From assembly GCF_009497655.1 (NCBI RefSeq), contig NZ_CP023317.1, forward strand, positions 2,757,501 to 2,821,500: 64,000 nt of DNA, written 5' to 3'. Shown in pieces: positions 39,516 to 52,364 of the stretch. Below the pieces are notes generated by a model. That model did not search any database. It saw only the letters and a list, made by a program, of their open reading frames with translations, and was not told where the DNA came from. The translations under genes were made by a program, and so were the position numbers. The stretch comes from Priestia megaterium. GTDB taxonomy: Bacteria; Bacillota; Bacilli; Bacillales; Bacillaceae_H. Each line of letters begins with the position of its first letter. Positions within the stretch are counted from its first letter, which is position 1.

Positions 39516-39828
39516 ATTTATTCCCCCTATTTGTAAAAAGAGTGTACTTGGCAAGTATAAACTTTTCCATTTTCAAACTCAATGAATGTACTTTGCTTTT
39601 CTCTTTTATAAAGCTACTATAATACTCTCCTTACATCTAAAATTGTACAAGCGCTATAAAGAAAGAATTTTATATTTGCAATAAGCCTTTATATACTAAT
39701 AGCTGGTTAGGCTAATTTGATATAAAACAGCATTCACAAAAACGAATTTTCCTTTTAGCCTTTAGAGTATCGTTCAAAAAAGATATAATAAGAGTGTTAC
39801 AGATTAAATACATGCAGAGGAGGTCAAC

Positions 39829-41292
39829 ATGAACGAACCATCCAATTTTTCTCCTTACCTTATTAAACAAATCAGCGATGCGATCGATGACAATATCAAA
39901 GCAAAGTGTATAGACTTTTTATATGATTCTCATTCGTTTTTTTCGAATGAAAAAGATTTTATAGAAGACTACATTTTAAATATATTGCAAGATACGTTTG
40001 TTTTAGAGAATAAATTAATAAATCCTAAGGAAATACGAAACCCAGCCTACAAAAGAAGACAATCAAATAAGAAAAACTGGCTGCAAACATTAAAAAAAGA
40101 TATTAAAGCAGAAAAGCCTAATCCTATTTTTGAAGACATTGAATTAGCCAAAAAAGTGATGGATAAAAAAGTAGATACCGAACACTTAAAAAAGCTGTTT
40201 GGCGTGGAAAAACCTGAAGATATTTTAAAGATAAAGTTAAAAGAAGTAGAGGCATGGGCTAAAAGCAAAAAAACAAACATTACCGATTTTCCTTATTTAG
40301 ATTCAAAAATGAATTATCAAATAGAGAAAGCATTTCACACGGACTTTACTTTTTTAATTGCGGAAATCATCTTAGAAAAATACAATGGAAATTTAAGCAA
40401 CTGGATTGATAAACGATTAAATTCGTGGGTAGAGGCGCCTATCTTCTCAAACGAAAGTCATTCTCTTAAAACCAATATGGAAGTTAAAACAAACTCCCAA
40501 GAAGTCGTTTTATATAATGACTATAAAGTTGATGAAGAATATTTCATTCGCACCATTATCCCTGTGAATGATAATCAAACGGTTCTTTCCAAACGAAATA
40601 TGGTTTTAGACCCAAAAGATTCCCAAATTATCCAGTTTGCTCTTTCACAGCGCGACGAGATGTTTTATAAAGAAAAAACGGTGACTCTTGATTTAGCGGA
40701 TATCGTGAAAGAAATTTATAATTCAAAAGGTGTAAAAAACTATGAAGCCGTTGAAGCCCGCATTATGAAAATTGCCAGGTATCACGTAGAAGGTGTAGCA
40801 AAGAAGAAAAATTCCAGAGATACAAAATTTGCGATCAACTTCTTTCAAAAGGCTGTTATTGAAACCGATGAAGTAACGGGCAGACGATATGCAACGATTG
40901 TATTTAGCGATGATACGCATCAAGGCTTTTTAAATCAGCAGTTTGTACAAATATACAGTGATGTTATTAAAAAGTTTAAAGATAACTCGCTGTCTTCTTT
41001 ACTGCTTTATGCATTTCAAAAAGAGCGTTTAGACTGTTATTTACAAGAAAAGTCTTACACTCATTTTTACCCGTATCAATATTTTGCTTCAAAAGTTCGT
41101 TTTCGTTCAAAGAAAATTGATGTAAACCTAAAATTAATTAATGAATCTCTAGCAGAATTTGTTAGCAATCAAGTACTGATCCAAAGTTATCAGCAAAAAC
41201 TTCAAGGATTTGAAATCTCTTTTATTCCTCTTCAAAATTATGAAATTCAAGACTATTTTGGAGGAGAACATAGAGAAACATTGGAAGGGTAA
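39829..41292 (+). CDS. putative plasmid-type replication initiator (487 aa)
   Basis: AGGAGG eight bases upstream supports the start. The N-terminal 210 residues are Lys-rich and helical with no recognised fold. From about residue 255 the pattern looks like two winged-helix modules: a first one with VTLDLADIVKEIYN and GVKNYEAVEARIMKIA, followed by long beta-strands (RRYATIVFSDDT), and a second with SDVIKKFKDNSLSSLLLYAF and FASKVRF. This layout recalls Rep_3/RepA-type iteron-binding initiators. The iteron array begins 90 bp after the stop, which is the main support. Recognition is by layout only. The protein could also be a regulator specific to the element. Confidence 0.5.
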   Translation: MNEPSNFSPYLIKQISDAIDDNIKAKCIDFLYDSHSFFSNEKDFIEDYILNILQDTFVLENKLINPKEIRNPAYKRRQSNKKNWLQTLKKDIKAEKPNPIFEDIELAKKVMDKKVDTEHLKKLFGVEKPEDILKIKLKEVEAWAKSKKTNITDFPYLDSKMNYQIEKAFHTDFTFLIAEIILEKYNGNLSNWIDKRLNSWVEAPIFSNESHSLKTNMEVKTNSQEVVLYNDYKVDEEYFIRTIIPVNDNQTVLSKRNMVLDPKDSQIIQFALSQRDEMFYKEKTVTLDLADIVKEIYNSKGVKNYEAVEARIMKIARYHVEGVAKKKNSRDTKFAINFFQKAVIETDEVTGRRYATIVFSDDTHQGFLNQQFVQIYSDVIKKFKDNSLSSLLLYAFQKERLDCYLQEKSYTHFYPYQYFASKVRFRSKKIDVNLKLINESLAEFVSNQVLIQSYQQKLQGFEISFIPLQNYEIQDYFGGEHRETLEG

Positions 41293-41381: not shown

Positions 41382-42152
41382 TTTTGTCATTTTTAACGTA
41401 CTACACAAAAGCTTTTGCCGTTTTTGACGTACTACTCCGCTTCTTTTGCCGTTTTCTGCGTATTAATTACTGTCTTTTGCTGTTTTTGACGTACTACTTT
41501 GCTTCTTTTGCTGTTTTTGACGTACTAAATTCATTTTATTTACTCGTCATCACTTATTAATTGTTAATTATTCTCTTTTTTTCGTAAAACAATCCTACCT
41601 TTTGCCATTTTTGACGTACTCCTTCACTACTTTTGCCGTTTTCTGCGTACTAAACATTGCTTTTCCCTTTGTTATGTCCTTTTCAAACCCTATTTTTTAT
41701 TTTTTTCGCAGCATATATAAAGCTTTGGCCATTTTTGACGTACCAAACGATATCTTTTGCTGTTTTTAGCGTACTACCAGGTCGTTTTTGACGTTTTTCA
41801 CGTACTAAAAATAGCTTTTGCCATTTTTGACGTACTATTGAAATTCATTGTGTTATTTACAGCGATCAGAGAAGTGATTTTTTTCCCTTTTTTTAGGTGA
41901 ATCGAGATCACTTTTGCTGTTTTTGGCGTACCACTCTTCACTTTTGCTATTTTCGGCGTACTATATTGAGCCTTTTGCCGTTTTTTACGTACTAAAACGC
42001 ATAAAGTTTTTTTTGATTTTTACTGATCGTAACAAACACTGTTCTACCGGCGCTTGCTTGCTTTTGCCGTTTTTGTCGTACTAAAAAACCTATACGCTGA
42101 ATCCCTTGCTATGACAGCATTCTTTGAGCCTTTTGCCGTTTTTCGCGTACTA
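41382..42152 (+). repeat. 16-copy iteron array, 22-bp unit
   Basis: Sixteen direct, same-strand copies of a 22-bp unit occur, whose first 20 bases follow TTTTGCYRTTTTYNNCGTAC with TA after it. Copies start near 41382, 41413, 41444, 41475, 41506, 41600, 41631, 41723, 41755, 41786, 41816, 41912, 41942, 41973, 42062 and 42131. The first five are spaced exactly 31 bp start to start (about three helical turns); later ones pair at 30-32 bp with gaps between pairs. An extra degenerate copy may sit near 41320. The unit sequences vary at the YR and NN positions but the CGTACTA end is nearly invariant. No spacers of uniform size and unique content, so it is not a CRISPR array. Confidence 0.9.
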
Positions 42153-42261: not shown

Positions 42262-43284
42262 ATGATAAAAAAAGAATTTGCGAAAATTGGAAAACAAATT
42301 ATTCGCCAATTGTCTAGCACCGTAGAAAAATATAAAGATATTGAAGATCACATGGACCTAGACGCTCATGGGAACCCTACAATCAAAACAGTGGCAGAAC
42401 ATCACCGTTTATCTAAATCTCAAATTTCACAATTAATTTTTTATCACTTCCTTCACGTTGATGAAAGAGGTATTATTTGTGATGTTTCTGAAAAAGAGAT
42501 TGCAGCCGCTTTGAATTGTACAGTTCGAACAGTTCGCAACAACAATGTAGTATTAGCAGAAACAGAATTAATTTCCTATTCTCGCAGCGGCAAAGGAATC
42601 AATATTTGTATTGTTCCCTACCCTCAATATTTTGAAGAACACGGCTTTGGGTTTATGGAATTAGAATATACTCGCTTTGAAGAACTTATTCTAATTGAAA
42701 ACGTAAATGCCCTTCGCTTAGAGCTGCGCAAAGAATTGGTTTATGACAACGATACGATTAAGCGTCAGTTTAATCCTGGAGAAAACACTTCAAAAATTAG
42801 CTTTAATGACTATAAAATTTTTACGCCGAAATATACTCACTACAAGGGTATGATGCAAAAAATAGCTGAAACGCAGGCGAGCGCATTTAAAACCGTTGTC
42901 CAAGGATCTACTATTTTCTTTGTTTTAAAAGACGGAGCTAAAAATGGCAAGATGTCAAAACAAGAAAAGAGAGATCAATACGATGCGGCGATTCGACGTA
43001 CTATTGAAGAGACTTTTGTAAAATTATCTGGACACAGCACAGATTCTACAGGAATTGTTATGTCTTCATTCCAAAACGAAGACATCGCTGATTTGGTTCA
43101 GCTTTCTTTTGAATATGGTATTGAACGAGTGAAGTCTGCCCTTTATACATTGATTGAACAGGCCTTCTTCAGCCATGATGCTCAAGTCGTTGAAAATTAC
43201 GGTGGGAAAATCCGTACGCTCATTCGAAAAGAGCTTTCAAAAAATCTTCAAGATCAAGTCCCTGCCGAACTTACAGCTTCATAA
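42262..43284 (+). CDS. putative winged-helix replication protein (340 aa)
   Basis: TGGAGGGA lies eight to nine bases before the ATG. A helix-turn-helix is clear at residues 75-105 (SEKEIAAALNCTVRTVRNNN), followed by a wing (LISYSRSGKGINICIVPY). The C-terminal half (FQNEDIADLVQLSFEYGIER, then VKSALYTLIEQAF) is helical, like DnaD-type or RepA C-terminal domains. It follows the iteron array by about 110 bp and is itself followed by a DnaA-box region, so a replication role is inferred from context. I do not recognise a named family. Confidence 0.5.
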   Translation: MIKKEFAKIGKQIIRQLSSTVEKYKDIEDHMDLDAHGNPTIKTVAEHHRLSKSQISQLIFYHFLHVDERGIICDVSEKEIAAALNCTVRTVRNNNVVLAETELISYSRSGKGINICIVPYPQYFEEHGFGFMELEYTRFEELILIENVNALRLELRKELVYDNDTIKRQFNPGENTSKISFNDYKIFTPKYTHYKGMMQKIAETQASAFKTVVQGSTIFFVLKDGAKNGKMSKQEKRDQYDAAIRRTIEETFVKLSGHSTDSTGIVMSSFQNEDIADLVQLSFEYGIERVKSALYTLIEQAFFSHDAQVVENYGGKIRTLIRKELSKNLQDQVPAELTAS

Positions 43285-44126
43285 GGGGCTTCTTTGGCAT
43301 GCCTTTTTTTATTTTCTATCCCTTCTCCTCTCTTTTTGATACAAATAGTACAAACAAACACCCATTTTTTCAGCTCTCCAATTCCATTATCCTATCCATA
43401 TAAACGTAATGAGTTTAAATAAATGATATTTCTTGTGTATAACTATGGAATATTACTAAAAAAACATCTTCATACTTATCCACAAAAGAAAGAAAACATA
43501 TTCAATGACTGTTATATCATCCTCTTTATTAATAAAAACATCCCTTTTATTTTTTTATTAACGATAATTTCCAGGTTATTTACTCTTTAACATAACTACT
43601 TTTATCCACAGTGGAAATAATTCATACTTTTAACAGCAATCTTCATTCTATTGATTTTAAAATCCATCTATTGTAGAAGAAAAAACATAGTAAATAAACT
43701 AGATTCCATATCTACTACGATAAAAAACATCCTTTAGCCAAAGGATGCTGTTCACAAAAAAGGGCTATTTTCCACACAGTTATTTATTGAAAAGCTATTT
43801 TCTTTCTAACCCTTGATATCATTAGGTTTTTAGAGGATTTTTCTTTCTTTAATATCTGTATATAATGTTTGCTAATAAGATCTATACTAATCTCTGCTAT
43901 AAGATTTTATTTAATATTTGTATAAAGAAATGTTTTAAAAATATCTATACCTGAGGATTTTCACTTTTTCTAAATTAAGGAGTTTTCATTACATATACCA
44001 AATACAAATAAATTAAAATAAAACAATAGTTCAAACGCCTCTTAATAAATTCTAGTAGTATATTTTTTAAAATAAATTATACTATTCAGTAGAGAAAAAT
44101 TTATAAAGCAAGAAAGGGACTTAGTC
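43285..44126. other. 842-bp non-coding, origin-like region with DnaA boxes
   Basis: Three perfect DnaA boxes fit TTATNCACA: 43434-43442 (minus strand, TTATACACA), 43476-43484 (plus, TTATCCACA) and 43602-43610 (plus, TTATCCACA). A near match TTTTCCACA is at 43768-43776. Between them lies AT-rich DNA (43500-43570) that could unwind. A hairpin CATCCTTT / AAAGGATG is at 43728-43748. No open frame is seen. The promoter of the MscS gene must be at the right end. Confidence 0.65.
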
Positions 44127-45431: not shown

Positions 45432-46445
45432 TTAGCTGCTGCTGCACCCGCTCCCGCAGCTAGAGCTTGAACAGCTTGAGCTGCTGCAGTTTGAACTCGA
45501 ACAGCTGCTGCCGCTGTCATGATGGTGGTGACCTCCGTCGTGGTGATGATGACGGTTGTCTTCCCATGGACTTGAACAGCTATAGCCGCTGTACGAGGCT
45601 GTATCTCCCGCATAGATTGTCTTTTTGTATAGCAGCAGTTCATTCATATGGCTTGAAAAGTTGGTGGCTTTGTAGAGAGAATAAAAAACAAAGCCTTGAA
45701 GAAGAAGTTCGTTTGATACATTTCCTTTTTTAGCCGCTTTTTTAAAATAAGTTGATCCGCCCGTTTTTTTTCTTTTTCGTGCAGCAGTGACTTCTTCTTT
45801 TAATGTTTGAATCAAATGCCTCTGTTGTGTTTCCCATTTGCCGTTTCTTAAGAAATAGCGATCTAGTAATTCATCTTCTGATAACCTTTGAAAATCTTGA
45901 AGCGTACTTTTATCAAGCGGATGCTGAAAAAATTTCCCCCAAAGCAGTCGGCTGTTACCCGTTATGTCAAACAAATGAGCATACATCCAATCGAAGAACG
46001 CTCGCTTATCCGGCTGTGGGGATGGAGCTGTTTCTACATTTGGCTGGTGATGCAAAAAGCGGTTGAAAAAGTGTTCTGTAAAACGCTCATAATCTACTGT
46101 AAACATAATCATTTCATGCCATACTTCATCCACTTTTGCACTAAACATCGGTACGTCTTTGATGACTGCATTTAATAAAAAGTAGCGCTTCATCTCAAAA
46201 AACGTCCATTCCACTTCATCGTCTTTTGTATTTTTTCCTTTCATGCGCTGTTTCACTTGCTGAACATAGGCTGCCGGTAAAGAATCTTCTAGTGAATGAA
46301 CAATATCTTCAAACCCTTGATTTTTATGTATTCCGAGATCATCTGGAAGCTCCTCTTTATACAAGCGAAATCTTCTCGATTTTACAATCCCTTTAATAAT
46401 CAAAGCTAAAAGAATTACCGCTCCTACTATAATGGCTGCTATCAT
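45432..46445 (-). CDS. membrane-anchored protein with glycine-rich-domain-like core and His/Cys/Ser tail
   Basis: The 337-residue protein starts with a membrane helix (IAAIIVGAVILLALIIKGI). The middle (FEMKRYFLLNAVIKDVPMFS, KVDEVWHEMIMFTVDYERF) matches the GRDP-like domain with its DxxWH motif, also seen in plant glycine-rich domain proteins. The last 45 residues are extraordinary: two HHHH clusters separated by D and G, followed by a Cys- and Ser-only stretch. This tail could bind metal ions such as zinc or nickel. Such tails are also seen in putative TIGR04222-type exosortase-like proteins. Function unknown. Confidence 0.75.
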   Translation of the reverse strand: MIAAIIVGAVILLALIIKGIVKSRRFRLYKEELPDDLGIHKNQGFEDIVHSLEDSLPAAYVQQVKQRMKGKNTKDDEVEWTFFEMKRYFLLNAVIKDVPMFSAKVDEVWHEMIMFTVDYERFTEHFFNRFLHHQPNVETAPSPQPDKRAFFDWMYAHLFDITGNSRLLWGKFFQHPLDKSTLQDFQRLSEDELLDRYFLRNGKWETQQRHLIQTLKEEVTAARKRKKTGGSTYFKKAAKKGNVSNELLLQGFVFYSLYKATNFSSHMNELLLYKKTIYAGDTASYSGYSCSSPWEDNRHHHHDGGHHHHDSGSSCSSSNCSSSSCSSSSCGSGCSSS

Positions 46446-49306: not shown

Positions 49307-52048
49307 TTAAATTATAGTTGCAGAATTTTTTTCCTTAATAACTTCTGTAGCCCACTTATGCCACTTCAATAAAGCTAGTCCAGTACGAGTTTTAGAAGCG
49401 TCTTTCCACTCTTTATTTAAGAGTTTTGCTACCATTGTTCCTACTGCATTTGAGTTAGGTGCAGTCCCCTGTTCCTTAATATAGTGTACAATTAGTTGTA
49501 TCGTTTGAGTTTCAATTATCTTTTCCGCTATAGTTAATTTATAGTCATCGTCTAAGTTAACTAATTTTATTGTGTCAATTTGTTTTATTGCTAGTCCAAG
49601 TGACTTTAGAACAGTAACTGCATTTCTTAAGCCCAACTTTTTTAATTCTTCTTCATTATCTATACCATGTTCAATTTTTGTAATTAACTCTAGAACCCTT
49701 TCCGCAGGAGCAGATCCTAAAAATGGGTGTATTCGAGCGTTGACAGCTATCCTACCATTAGGTATTAATATTTGTTTAGGCACAGGAGTCTTCTCTGACA
49801 AGTAAGTGATTTGTCCATGGCTAACTCTTATAATATTCAATCCTAAAAACCAGTTTATAACTCTATTTATATATACGCCAAATGTCTTTTGTGAAAATTG
49901 AGATTCTTTATACAAATTAATAAATGTCTTTTCAAACTCTTGAAAAGTTACTCCAAAACCGTCACCATATTGTGTTACTAAAGTTTTTAATAAAATGTGG
50001 CTATTAAAAAAGGAATAGACTTTATTTATTGCCTCATTTTCTGTCTCTTGAAGAAGTATTATTCTCTCTCCCTGCCTGGTGACATTTCCGAACATAACCA
50101 TATCCCGAATAAGGTTGTCTGAGGCTTTTATACTAATCTTCAAATTCTTTGCTATGTCCGATAAATTCATTTCTTTTTGGTTTAGCAGCAATTGTAAAAG
50201 GTTACTATATTTATTTAGATTCCCCTGAGGGATGTATGTTATGGTTATTCGAGGTACAGAACCTGTTAAAACATAATCTTTAAAAATATCCCAATACAAT
50301 ATTAGTTTATGTGCTTTACGAATTATCAACCTTCTATTAAGTAAAGCATGAACAGTTTCGCTTCCAAAATCCTGGTCAACTTTAAAGAAATCTGCAGGAG
50401 ATTCATTAGCAATTTTCTTTAAACATGCCTGCTCAGATGAAGATAATTCACTTAAATCCCTTTCAAATAAAGATTCGATATCTAGTCCTTTCCCCATTAT
50501 TTCATTTTGTTCGATACCATTCTTGATTAAAGAATGAACATGAATACAAAGTTTCTTTAATAACCATGGATAACCTTGACAGTGGTCTATAAGATATTTC
50601 TTCAAGCTAGGATTTAAAGATTGTCCCAATTCCTTTGAAAATATACTTAGAGCTTTGTTTATTTCTTTGGGTGTGAATGTAGAGAGTTGAAATTCCCTCC
50701 TTCTATCAGATAGACTCTGCCACATATAATAAGCTGGATGGTCTGTAGGTGTAGTTCCATCCGTTTTCCAAGCAAATCCAAGGATAATGTTCTCTCTAGC
50801 TGAATCTATAGCAATTGCTAACTTTCTAATACTTTCGAATAAATCAGCTAATTCATTTTTAGAAAATATCTCTTCAAATTGGTCAAAACATAAAATTAAT
50901 ACTTTATTTTCGTCTCTCAGCGACTGTAATATTTCAGCCAAACCTTTACTAGACAAGGGATTAGTGACACTGTTTATAATGATTTCTTCTGAAGGTTTAG
51001 TGATGAATCCTTTTTCCACTGCAGAATTAATACATGATAATAGTGATAACTCTCCATACCTACGTGAAGTTGCTGCCCGCACATCTACTGCATGAACAAA
51101 GAACTTAGTTTTGTATCTCTTACTTTTTGATTTTGAAACTAATTTTAGTAATGCTGAACTCTTTCCCCATCCTGAAGGAGCTTTAATAGCCAAAAGTCTT
51201 GTATTAGTTTCATTTTCTACTACAGAATTAAAATATTTAAATATATCACGAAGTAAATCCTCTCTCCCTATGAAATCTCTAGGTCTAGAAGGTCTATAAT
51301 CCGCCCATTGGTCTCCACCTGTAACTATTGCAATATTGCTAAGTTCTTCTGTAAGCTCCTCTGTAAGTACTTTGTTTTCATCGTTCAGTTCAGTCATGAT
51401 AAATTCAAGGTCGTTTAATGAAGTCTGCAATTTTGAGACAGAATTAATCACATCTTTATCAATTATTAACTTAGAATTCTCAGCATCATATAAAATCACT
51501 CCATATGGTATACCCGCAGAAACATGTAACACTTTAATAGCCCAAAACCTTCCGTACTCAGAAATTATAAGAGTATTTTCCTCCGCATAAGTGTATTTTT
51601 TATCTTTTGGTAACGCTATAGGATTGCATATCTTACCTGAACTAATTAATAAGTCTACTAACTTATCAGATGTATAAATATTCAATTTTCTTCTTTCGTC
51701 TGGGATTTTTTGGGACCATTCCTCTCTAAAACCTTTTGCATCTTTCCCCAGCGGTCCAGTTGTGAACAGCCACCCTGAAGAAACACCTTTAAAAAAAACA
51801 TTTCCTAATAATTTAGTAAGTACATCCGCAGATAAATTATTTTGGTGAGCTTTACATTCTACAAAGATTGTTTCTCCACTAATGAGATGTTTTGCTAGCA
51901 AATCAACTTCCATAGCTGTAACTCTCACTTCTTCTACTACCTCATACTGCAGGATAGATAATAACTCTTTCCCTAACTCCTCTAGAAGTCTCCCCTTTTG
52001 AGTATTAGTGGTATTATCAGACACAACAATTTCTACAAAATTTCCCAT
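49307..52048 (-). CDS. Mrr-type nuclease fused to a STAND NTPase (putative defence protein)
   Basis: I use ATG 52048 (AAGGAGATATTGTTA upstream), 913 residues. Residues about 15-130 form an Mrr/PD-(D/E)XK nuclease: Asp49 (MEVDLLAKH), Glu64-x-Lys66 (FVECKAH). Residues 240-560 are a STAND ATPase: DFIGREDLLRDIF, Walker A APSGWGKSS (GKS 295-297), Walker B VLILCFDQFEEIF (Asp389). The C-terminal 350 residues contain helical and winged-helix-like segments (NLSDIAKNLKISIKASDNLI) rather than TPR repeats. The order nuclease-NTPase-sensor is that of Avs-like STAND defence proteins, but this is shorter and the sensor is different. It would be expected to oligomerise on sensing phage and cut DNA. AT-rich codon use suggests transfer. 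Confidence 0.75.
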   Translation of the reverse strand: MGNFVEIVVSDNTTNTQKGRLLEELGKELLSILQYEVVEEVRVTAMEVDLLAKHLISGETIFVECKAHQNNLSADVLTKLLGNVFFKGVSSGWLFTTGPLGKDAKGFREEWSQKIPDERRKLNIYTSDKLVDLLISSGKICNPIALPKDKKYTYAEENTLIISEYGRFWAIKVLHVSAGIPYGVILYDAENSKLIIDKDVINSVSKLQTSLNDLEFIMTELNDENKVLTEELTEELSNIAIVTGGDQWADYRPSRPRDFIGREDLLRDIFKYFNSVVENETNTRLLAIKAPSGWGKSSALLKLVSKSKSKRYKTKFFVHAVDVRAATSRRYGELSLLSCINSAVEKGFITKPSEEIIINSVTNPLSSKGLAEILQSLRDENKVLILCFDQFEEIFSKNELADLFESIRKLAIAIDSARENIILGFAWKTDGTTPTDHPAYYMWQSLSDRRREFQLSTFTPKEINKALSIFSKELGQSLNPSLKKYLIDHCQGYPWLLKKLCIHVHSLIKNGIEQNEIMGKGLDIESLFERDLSELSSSEQACLKKIANESPADFFKVDQDFGSETVHALLNRRLIIRKAHKLILYWDIFKDYVLTGSVPRITITYIPQGNLNKYSNLLQLLLNQKEMNLSDIAKNLKISIKASDNLIRDMVMFGNVTRQGERIILLQETENEAINKVYSFFNSHILLKTLVTQYGDGFGVTFQEFEKTFINLYKESQFSQKTFGVYINRVINWFLGLNIIRVSHGQITYLSEKTPVPKQILIPNGRIAVNARIHPFLGSAPAERVLELITKIEHGIDNEEELKKLGLRNAVTVLKSLGLAIKQIDTIKLVNLDDDYKLTIAEKIIETQTIQLIVHYIKEQGTAPNSNAVGTMVAKLLNKEWKDASKTRTGLALLKWHKWATEVIKEKNSATII

Positions 52049-52364
52049 TAACAATATCTCCTTGTTATACTTAATAGTTAATAACTAAAAAATACATAAA
52101 TCTACATTTATATCAAAATTATACCACTAAAGTCTCTTAATAGTTATATAGTATTGGTTTAATATTAAATAAATTAGCCTAGGTCATTATTGTATAAAAC
52201 AGTGAGAAAATTTATCTAGCTCATCATCAAGGTACGTAATATCGCCTTTTTATTATAGTTCCATGATATAACTTACAGTTGTTCTGTGTGCATAAAAGTA
52301 TTGTTAATTCTAAATCTATATTCGTTCTAACATAAAAAGAAAGTTTCATTATAGGACTCTCTTG

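Follow-up and report, generated by a model that had tools for sequence, protein, structure and literature searches.

The window, by which we mean the whole stretch of Priestia megaterium DNA that was analysed (64,000 nucleotides; C1:2757501-2821500 of a 5,027,195-bp contig, C1, in a three-contig genome), contains, between two genes, an array of direct repeats that had been picked out in an earlier sequence-only reading. On the plus strand, the order of the module is a 487-aa gene, 16 iterons, a 340-aa gene and 842 bp of A+T-rich DNA, and the array module lies about 402 kb from dif. The contig is chromosomal by size, in agreement with the chromosome-like setting proposed in that reading. The features are as follows:

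39555..39828, plus strand: upstream region of the initiator gene, probably its promoter/operator, with 92% of positions invariant in five species
39829..41292, plus strand: 487-aa putative initiator (Rep), with conservation in five species, relatives on plasmids and low-confidence fold matches
41382..42152, plus strand: sixteen 22-bp iterons, as pattern matches, with copy number and spacing the same in five of five species
42262..43284, plus strand: 340-aa protein, the second gene of the module, with weak helix-turn-helix matches and relatives beside Rep in plasmids
43434..43442, minus strand: DnaA box TTATACACA, invariant in five species
43476..43484, plus strand: DnaA box TTATCCACA, invariant in five species
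43602..43610, plus strand: DnaA box TTATCCACA, invariant in five species
43768..43776, plus strand: DnaA box-like TTTTCCACA, with one mismatch, invariant in five species
43850..43940, plus strand: A+T-rich candidate for the unwinding region, in which the blocks TAATATCTGTATATAATGTTTG, TTTTATTTAATATTTGT and TAAAGAAATGTTTTAAA are conserved

Beyond the module, window 45432-46445 encodes a 337-aa protein that ends in a Ser/Cys/His-rich tail and of which residues 1 to 298-304 align in four relatives. At 49307-52054, in a low-GC stretch (about 48-64 kb, 29-33% GC), a 915-aa protein is encoded that matches Mrr_cat (restriction) and nSTAND1 (NTPase) and looks like the product of a defence gene.

A pattern scan of the window with TTTTGCYRTTTTNNNCGTACTA, allowing up to three mismatches, gave 16 same-strand matches at 41382-42152, a number reached in none of 100 dinucleotide shuffles (shuffle mean 0.12), and the sixteen same-direction 22-bp repeats originally described are therefore upheld. 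As in an iteron replicon, these direct repeats adjoin the initiator gene. Their start-to-start spacing is 31,31,31,31,94,31,93,31,31,30,96,30,31,89,69; the spacing of 30-32 bp claimed for them thus holds for 10 of the 15 intervals (30-31 bp) but not for the other five (94, 93, 96, 89 and 69). Likewise, the CGTACTA ends, said to be near-invariant, are exact in 12 of the 16 copies, but the truly invariant core is the shorter CGTA (80 of 80 over 16 copies and five species). GATC is absent from all 16 copies. Scanning the whole genome with the same pattern gave 47 matches, of which 16 are the array, compared with 24 for a backward control; no second cluster of the 22-bp repeats was found in the whole genome, the remaining matches being scattered background. 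A dispersed repeat family is ruled out by this clustering at 41382-42152 only, and the repeats are not merely unrelated dispersed elements. Two further points of the earlier reading need revision: the 487-aa and 340-aa ORFs do flank the array, but only the 487-aa protein looks like an initiator, and the copy number, thought to be far above the usual, falls within the range of about 4 to 30 that word counts and patterns give for the module's own family.

No family match was found for the 487-aa protein in Pfam or NCBIfam, with none to Rep_3 (PF01051) at E up to 1, and the Rep_3 profile matched none of 18 family members at 0.01. These scans argue against membership of Rep_3, the type of system with which the earlier reading compared the array. 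The nearest folds, from a low-confidence model, are those of RctB and RepE. Replication initiator protein A (RPA, PF10134) was matched by two of the 18 members (best 6.2e-6), with no Pfam match to it for the window's own protein. PHROG 13763, of no known function, was matched by the window protein (E 1.9e-4) and by 11 of the 18, and PHROG 36561, also without function, by five of the 18. The results point to a family of Firmicutes large-plasmid initiators that is hardly covered by the curated family libraries used. An AlphaFold model built from nine sequences was weak (mean pLDDT 55.8, pTM 0.32). Its best matches in the PDB were domains 2-3 of RctB (E 1.1e-5, 3.3e-5 and 5.8e-5, with a TM-score on the target of 0.36-0.39 for these three), followed by RepE of plasmid F (2z9o_B, E 3.8e-3, prob 1.00). 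The fold search returned no molecule beyond RctB and RepE at 0.01, a PDB sequence-profile search found no relative, and a viral fold library gave no match at 0.001. RepE and the Rep_3 initiators have a twin winged-helix fold, and the protein possibly has an RctB/RepE-like fold, for which the model provides a good lead rather than proof. An origin in phage is disfavoured, as no relative was found in 50,697 phage records, nor in viral contigs in two scans; the PHROG matches given above are to be set against this.

The 340-aa protein is 96-98.5% identical across species, with an ordinary dN/dS of 0.08-0.16. Its structure model was too poor to use (mean pLDDT 39.3), and a PDB sequence-profile search with it gave nothing convincing (best E 0.05). 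Downstream of its gene lie the DnaA boxes and A+T-rich region that are looked for in an iteron replicon: exact TTATNCACA boxes occur three times in the 842 bp, compared with 35 times in 660 kb of the chromosome (33 sampled 20-kb stretches), and an imperfect 24-bp repeat is present at 43859-43905, within the candidate unwinding region. Overall, the 842-bp stretch is 79% conserved, which is no higher than two of four intergenic controls outside the module (79-94%).

In a search of the genus, the 340-aa gene was found in five of 10 genomes, and all five carriers have both this Rep gene and that of a second module described below. The carrier contigs are 5.0-5.3 Mb in three of the five; in one relative, G001, the contig with the locus is 137,044 bp long. 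The Rep proteins are 99.4-100% identical to the window's copy in the five Priestia species, with dN/dS values of 0-0.012, compared with about 0.025-0.34 for 13 neighbouring genes (the one exception, 0, being in one pair with a dS of 0.019). All five carriers have 16 iterons with identical start-to-start spacing, and the 969 bp between the two genes contains 159 substituted columns and no indels; in seven other intergenic stretches there are 28 indel events for 434 substituted columns, so that about 10 indels (calculated by hand) would be expected in the 969 bp. Neighbouring genes are syntenic in the 18-19 kb compared from each of four relatives. Both the Rep protein and the iteron spacing are under selection, in a module that resides in a chromosome-sized contig, and it is almost certain that a module of a plasmid family is being maintained here. 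In four of the five locus-free Priestia genomes, only mqo, among 20 window proteins, was found within the 20-40 kb around mqo, and no clean insertion site could therefore be drawn; the fifth gave no mqo match.

A tblastn search with the 487-aa protein found relatives on 26 plasmid records, 25 of them covering at least 80% of the query; those listed, 20 of the 26, come from plasmids between 69 kb and 1.44 Mb in size and share no more than 39.2% identity with it, and most are annotated as hypothetical, with one as replication initiator protein A. The protein thus appears, by sequence, to be homologous to putative plasmid initiators, another mark of an iteron replicon. Homologous Rep proteins are encoded on large plasmids of Brevibacillus halotolerans (414 kb) and Paenibacillus thiaminolyticus (360 kb), at 39 and 37% identity to the window's protein, and of Alkalihalophilus pseudofirmus (158 kb) and Priestia koreensis (198 kb), at 37 and 31%. 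The annotation table of the A. pseudofirmus plasmid, which is incomplete, lists a replication-relaxation family protein but no further initiator. Among 397 genomes of the order, 14 gave a match, five of which are the Priestia species; the other nine are on contigs of 90-603 kb.

These large plasmids of the Bacillales resemble the window in having same-strand iterons between Rep and a second gene and, in several, DnaA boxes downstream. Apart from the window, 16 stretches were tested, and each has same-strand repeats downstream of Rep (the far end of the stretch was guessed for L057, L058, L061 and L113); a lag of 31 or 62 bp is present in most of 12 arrays, the P. thiaminolyticus array showing 28 first. 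Fixed iteron patterns for L111 and L058 gave two matches each; both show the 31-bp lag and repeated words. The repeat sequence varies from plasmid to plasmid, as it would between compatibility groups. In 11 of 17 loci, the second gene is akin to that of the window or of the second module. At seven loci other than the window's, the place of the 340-aa protein is taken by another type of protein, unrelated by phmmer. Alkalihalophilus, Anaerobacillus, Chengkuizengella and Paenibacillus have in common a second gene of another kind, and Brevibacillus has neither kind; in both Brevibacillus and Alkalihalophilus the second gene is unrelated by phmmer to the 340-aa protein. At least one exact DnaA box was found in 17 of 25 modules scanned and none in eight (L046, which is the second module, L055, L056, L057, L062, L063, L120 and L121; L057 and L121 are the same locus). 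The boxes are directly downstream of the second gene in the window, L059, L060, L109, L110, L111, L112 and L114, of which L059 and L060 are near-identical, and L058, L061, L108 and L113 have single boxes situated elsewhere than the usual places. Gene order and plasmid relatives, and weakly the fold, back the original interpretation of the array as part of an iteron replicon. What sets the window's module apart from its plasmid relatives is that its contig has the size of a chromosome, that its position is conserved in five species and that a second module lies across dif.

Several members of the family deserve separate mention. In a 722-kb plasmid of Aneurinibacillus (L114:3446-6798), Rep is inverted, eight repeats lie between the genes and DnaA boxes are downstream of the second gene. 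The 1.08-Mb plasmid pFDU301A of P. megaterium (L113:5881-9000) carries a member with about 30 copies of the word TTTGTGACCA, repeats that differ from those of both chromosomal modules. Clostridioides records (about 130 kb) and Lachnospira (Eubacterium) eligens records (627-629 kb) contain distant relatives of the initiator, and the family therefore reaches beyond the Bacillales.

A scan of named genomes gave eight loci, including P. aryabhattai. Two of the loci, L116 and L122, are in Paenibacillus chromosomes (8.38 and 7.96 Mb, both complete), and five are on contigs of 79-465 kb; the strains with a chromosomal module are Paenibacillus sp. RC67 and H1-7. Eight of nine proteins tested from the Paenibacillus flanks belong to metabolic, transport or regulator families and one is without a match, and the flanks are species-specific. 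Among L118, L119 and L122 the initiator is 97.1-98.3% identical, compared with 79.8-94.1% for the second gene. A pair of DnaA boxes facing each other lies between the repeats and the second gene in five of five Paenibacillus modules. A dif pattern was not found in Paenibacillus by pattern search. The downstream half of the iteron array, as start-to-start intervals, is laid out as follows:

Window: 31,31,30 / 96 / 30,31 / 89 / 69
L119: 31,31,32 / 87 / 30,31 / 92 / 46
L120: 31,31 / 106 / 30,31 / 91 / 46
L121: 31,31,31 / 107 / 31,31 / 92 / 46
L110 (Brevibacillus plasmid): 31 / 95 / 61,30 / 93 / 66

By eye, these layouts are alike across genera. The fit is poorer in L116, L117, L118 and L122, which include the two complete chromosomes, where some intervals are sums (61 for 30+31), as if the pattern may have missed copies.

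The second module lies across dif, which is at 2.3957 Mb, from the first:

L046:7198-10674 (C1:1850197-1853673), minus strand: locus 2 module, Rep, iterons and second gene, with 10 repeats of core TCCGTGCAAA

It comprises a gene for a 478-aa relative of Rep (29% identical) and, after it, one for a 379-aa protein that is related to the 340-aa protein; each of the two modules reads away from dif, on its own arm. The locus 2 Rep is 98.5-100% identical among species, with a dN/dS of 0-0.041, and the repeat spacing, 31, 116, 61, 84, 30, 125, 61, 145, 78, is found in five of five species (126 for 125 in G001). On one flank are three genes without a counterpart in the stretches from four relatives. 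No exact DnaA box was found in the modules scanned of locus 2 and its plasmid kin. A search with the protein found 35 plasmid records, with P. koreensis at 78%; in a tree, the P. koreensis plasmid and a contig from the same genus form a group with the locus 2 initiator (100/99), and the window initiator falls with other plasmids and Paenibacillus (100/99). Because the initiators fall in different groups, the modules were presumably acquired separately. A dif-like site with two mismatches is also present on a smaller contig of the genome (G000:C2:130404-130429, L038). In the open-licence literature searched, we found nothing on a chromosomal iteron replicon in Priestia or Paenibacillus, on the initiator family or on the chromosomal fixation of two modules of frozen geometry; the component parts are each of a familiar kind.

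Plain GC skew, from sampled stretches making up about 46% of C1, changes sign once inside the contig, at dif, with no visible second origin; the module is therefore not an equal, constant origin. We also measured the skew at four-fold sites (G versus C, leading strand, simple predicted ORFs) and segmented it without reference to the loci, using 1,307 ORFs over 1.44-3.42 Mb, with small gaps, and allowing as many as 10 segments. In the model with the best score, the boundaries fall at 1.613, 1.807, 2.224, 2.566, 2.788 and 3.067 Mb and separate segments with skews of 0.207, 0.068, 0.254, 0.157 (the dif zone), 0.283, 0.153 and 0.248. At 2.788 Mb, 9 kb away from where rep starts (2.797 Mb), the skew drops from 0.283 to 0.153; it recovers at 3.067 Mb. 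On the other arm, the skew steps at 1.807 Mb, or at 1.889 Mb in the next model, roughly 40 kb away from locus 2, and this step is confused by a low-GC stretch at 1.62-1.77 Mb that overlaps the dip. That stretch of C1, ori-ward of locus 2, has a weak or reversed leading-strand skew and is perhaps acquired DNA. The chance of placement this close, calculated by hand for one ori-ward drop per arm, is about 2% for locus 1 and about 9% for locus 2. Mann-Whitney zone tests gave p values of 1.4e-4 for locus 1 and 1.3e-3 for locus 2 (low-GC bins left out), with zones set by the loci and neighbouring bins that are not independent; the locus-blind segmentation was made in answer to this.

Colinearity with G002, a Priestia genome without the module, bears on the origin of the dip. 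Of 13 protein pieces from the low-skew stretch at 2.83-3.06 Mb, nine match G002 colinearly at 2.376-2.594 Mb, two match elsewhere and two have no match, so that most of this stretch is not foreign; on the high-skew, ter-ward side (2.60-2.75 Mb), one of nine pieces is colinear (2.736 Mb). Judged by these matches, most of the low-skew side is native and most of the high-skew side peculiar to this group, and the break may show where the history of the DNA changes, not where fork direction does. Such a dip would result if forks sometimes started at the module and moved toward oriC; a change in DNA history at this place could contribute to it. The dip is no more than suggestive of firing; that the module fires on the chromosome often enough to matter we put at somewhat less than an even chance.

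The interpretation that we prefer, though only at about even chances for the whole of it, is that 39.8-44.0 kb is a complete iteron replicon of the Bacillales large-plasmid family, fixed in the chromosome of this Priestia group and perhaps serving as a secondary origin. The 487-aa protein would be the initiator, and we predict that it very probably binds the 16 iterons, the lattice of about 31 bp (three helical turns) allowing the bound protein to build an ordered complex. With DnaA bound to the boxes that follow the 340-aa gene, this complex would open the A+T-rich region there, as the architecture suggests, and the 340-aa protein may be a regulator or accessory factor. The segment can probably, we predict, drive a mini-replicon. 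On the chromosome, the module would most likely act as a secondary origin, firing late or else only in certain cells or under certain conditions, in which case the ter-ward fork would run with the oriC fork and the ori-ward fork would meet the oncoming oriC fork within a few hundred kb. A larger proposal, which we regard as possible and rather unlikely, is a stable, natural multi-origin chromosome with oriC and two plasmid-derived iteron origins that have separate initiators; two extra origins about 360-600 kb from dif, one per arm and firing late, would then finish the terminus half, and a similar capture would have occurred in Paenibacillus.

The module could instead be kept without firing, with Rep and the 16 iterons acting as an incompatibility and titration locus that would keep down incoming plasmids with the same type of repeat, or controlling the copy number of such a plasmid. 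Frozen iterons and an initiator need no firing, the family is spread on Bacillales plasmids, and the repeats of the 1.08-Mb P. megaterium plasmid are different, as compatibility would demand; moreover, the functional second origin of V. cholerae NSCV2 is silent on its fused chromosome, according to the available part of PMC6284228. However, a plasmid with repeats of this type did not turn up: when 72,556 plasmid records were searched at the DNA level with the module, the one match lay in the second gene and covered 8% of the module. A pure titration array, in addition, has no obvious need of fixed spacing, a second gene or DnaA boxes and does not predict the break in skew, and we consider this explanation unlikely. 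We are more doubtful still that the module is a former working origin, from a fused chromid or an integrated plasmid, now domesticated as a regulatory or architectural site, such as one for a replication checkpoint or for segregation, with the dip a relic or otherwise caused. Base-composition skew changes slowly, which would allow for a relic; the five carrier genomes are 5.1-6.0 Mb in size, compared with 3.9-4.2 Mb for the five non-carriers in the genus; and the stretch at 2.736-2.847 Mb, around the locus, is about 100 kb longer than in G002, with a ter-ward side that is mostly not colinear. Nevertheless, the colinearity of most of the low-skew stretch with G002 argues against wholesale import, and all five species retain both the geometry of an origin and intact DnaA boxes. 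Finally, that the module is what is left of an integrated plasmid, now decaying and without function, is hardly credible; the location of most relatives on plasmids or plasmid-sized contigs might point to this, but it is already contradicted by the purifying selection on the module (dN/dS 0-0.012, no indels among 159 substituted columns, and synteny in five of five species).

A chromosomal iteron replicon that may act as a secondary origin has partial parallels in known systems. The F plasmid resembles the window in that its iterons adjoin the RepE gene and in that RepE (2z9o) is the second-best fold match, and it differs in the length and spacing of its repeats and in the Rep_3 profile, to which there is no match here. 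Haloferax and Haloarcula, in the portion of the literature available, have extra or dormant origins on one chromosome, a likeness to the chromosome proposed; the initiators of such archaeal multi-origin chromosomes are Orc1/Cdc6, and differ from Rep. A further comparison is with ori2 and RctB of Vibrio cholerae, since there too an iteron-type origin can sit on the main chromosome and, by the weak model, the fold is possibly similar. RctB-type origins have short iterons with GATC methylation sites. In the part available of PMC7858055, RctB is described as binding 12-mer iterons, under the control of 39-mers and crtS, whereas the repeats here are 22-mers that lack GATC. Of the two single-chromosome strains NSCV1 and NSCV2, one has an active second origin and the other a silent one, and such strains are described as exceptions (PMC6284228); here, all five species examined have the module. 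These fused-chromosome origins may serve as an analogy for how an extra origin would behave in Priestia.

All five species examined, from a genus of laboratory and industrial use, have complete plasmid-type origins of frozen geometry, with a highly conserved initiator, in their chromosomes. A single origin per chromosome is the usual textbook view of bacteria, and a known natural exception, V. cholerae with one chromosome, concerns individual strains. Whether a plasmid origin can turn into a lasting second origin of a chromosome, and by what means oriC and a resident iteron origin would keep out of conflict, can be put to direct test here. The iteron layout of this initiator family could also aid plasmid typing and the building of vectors.
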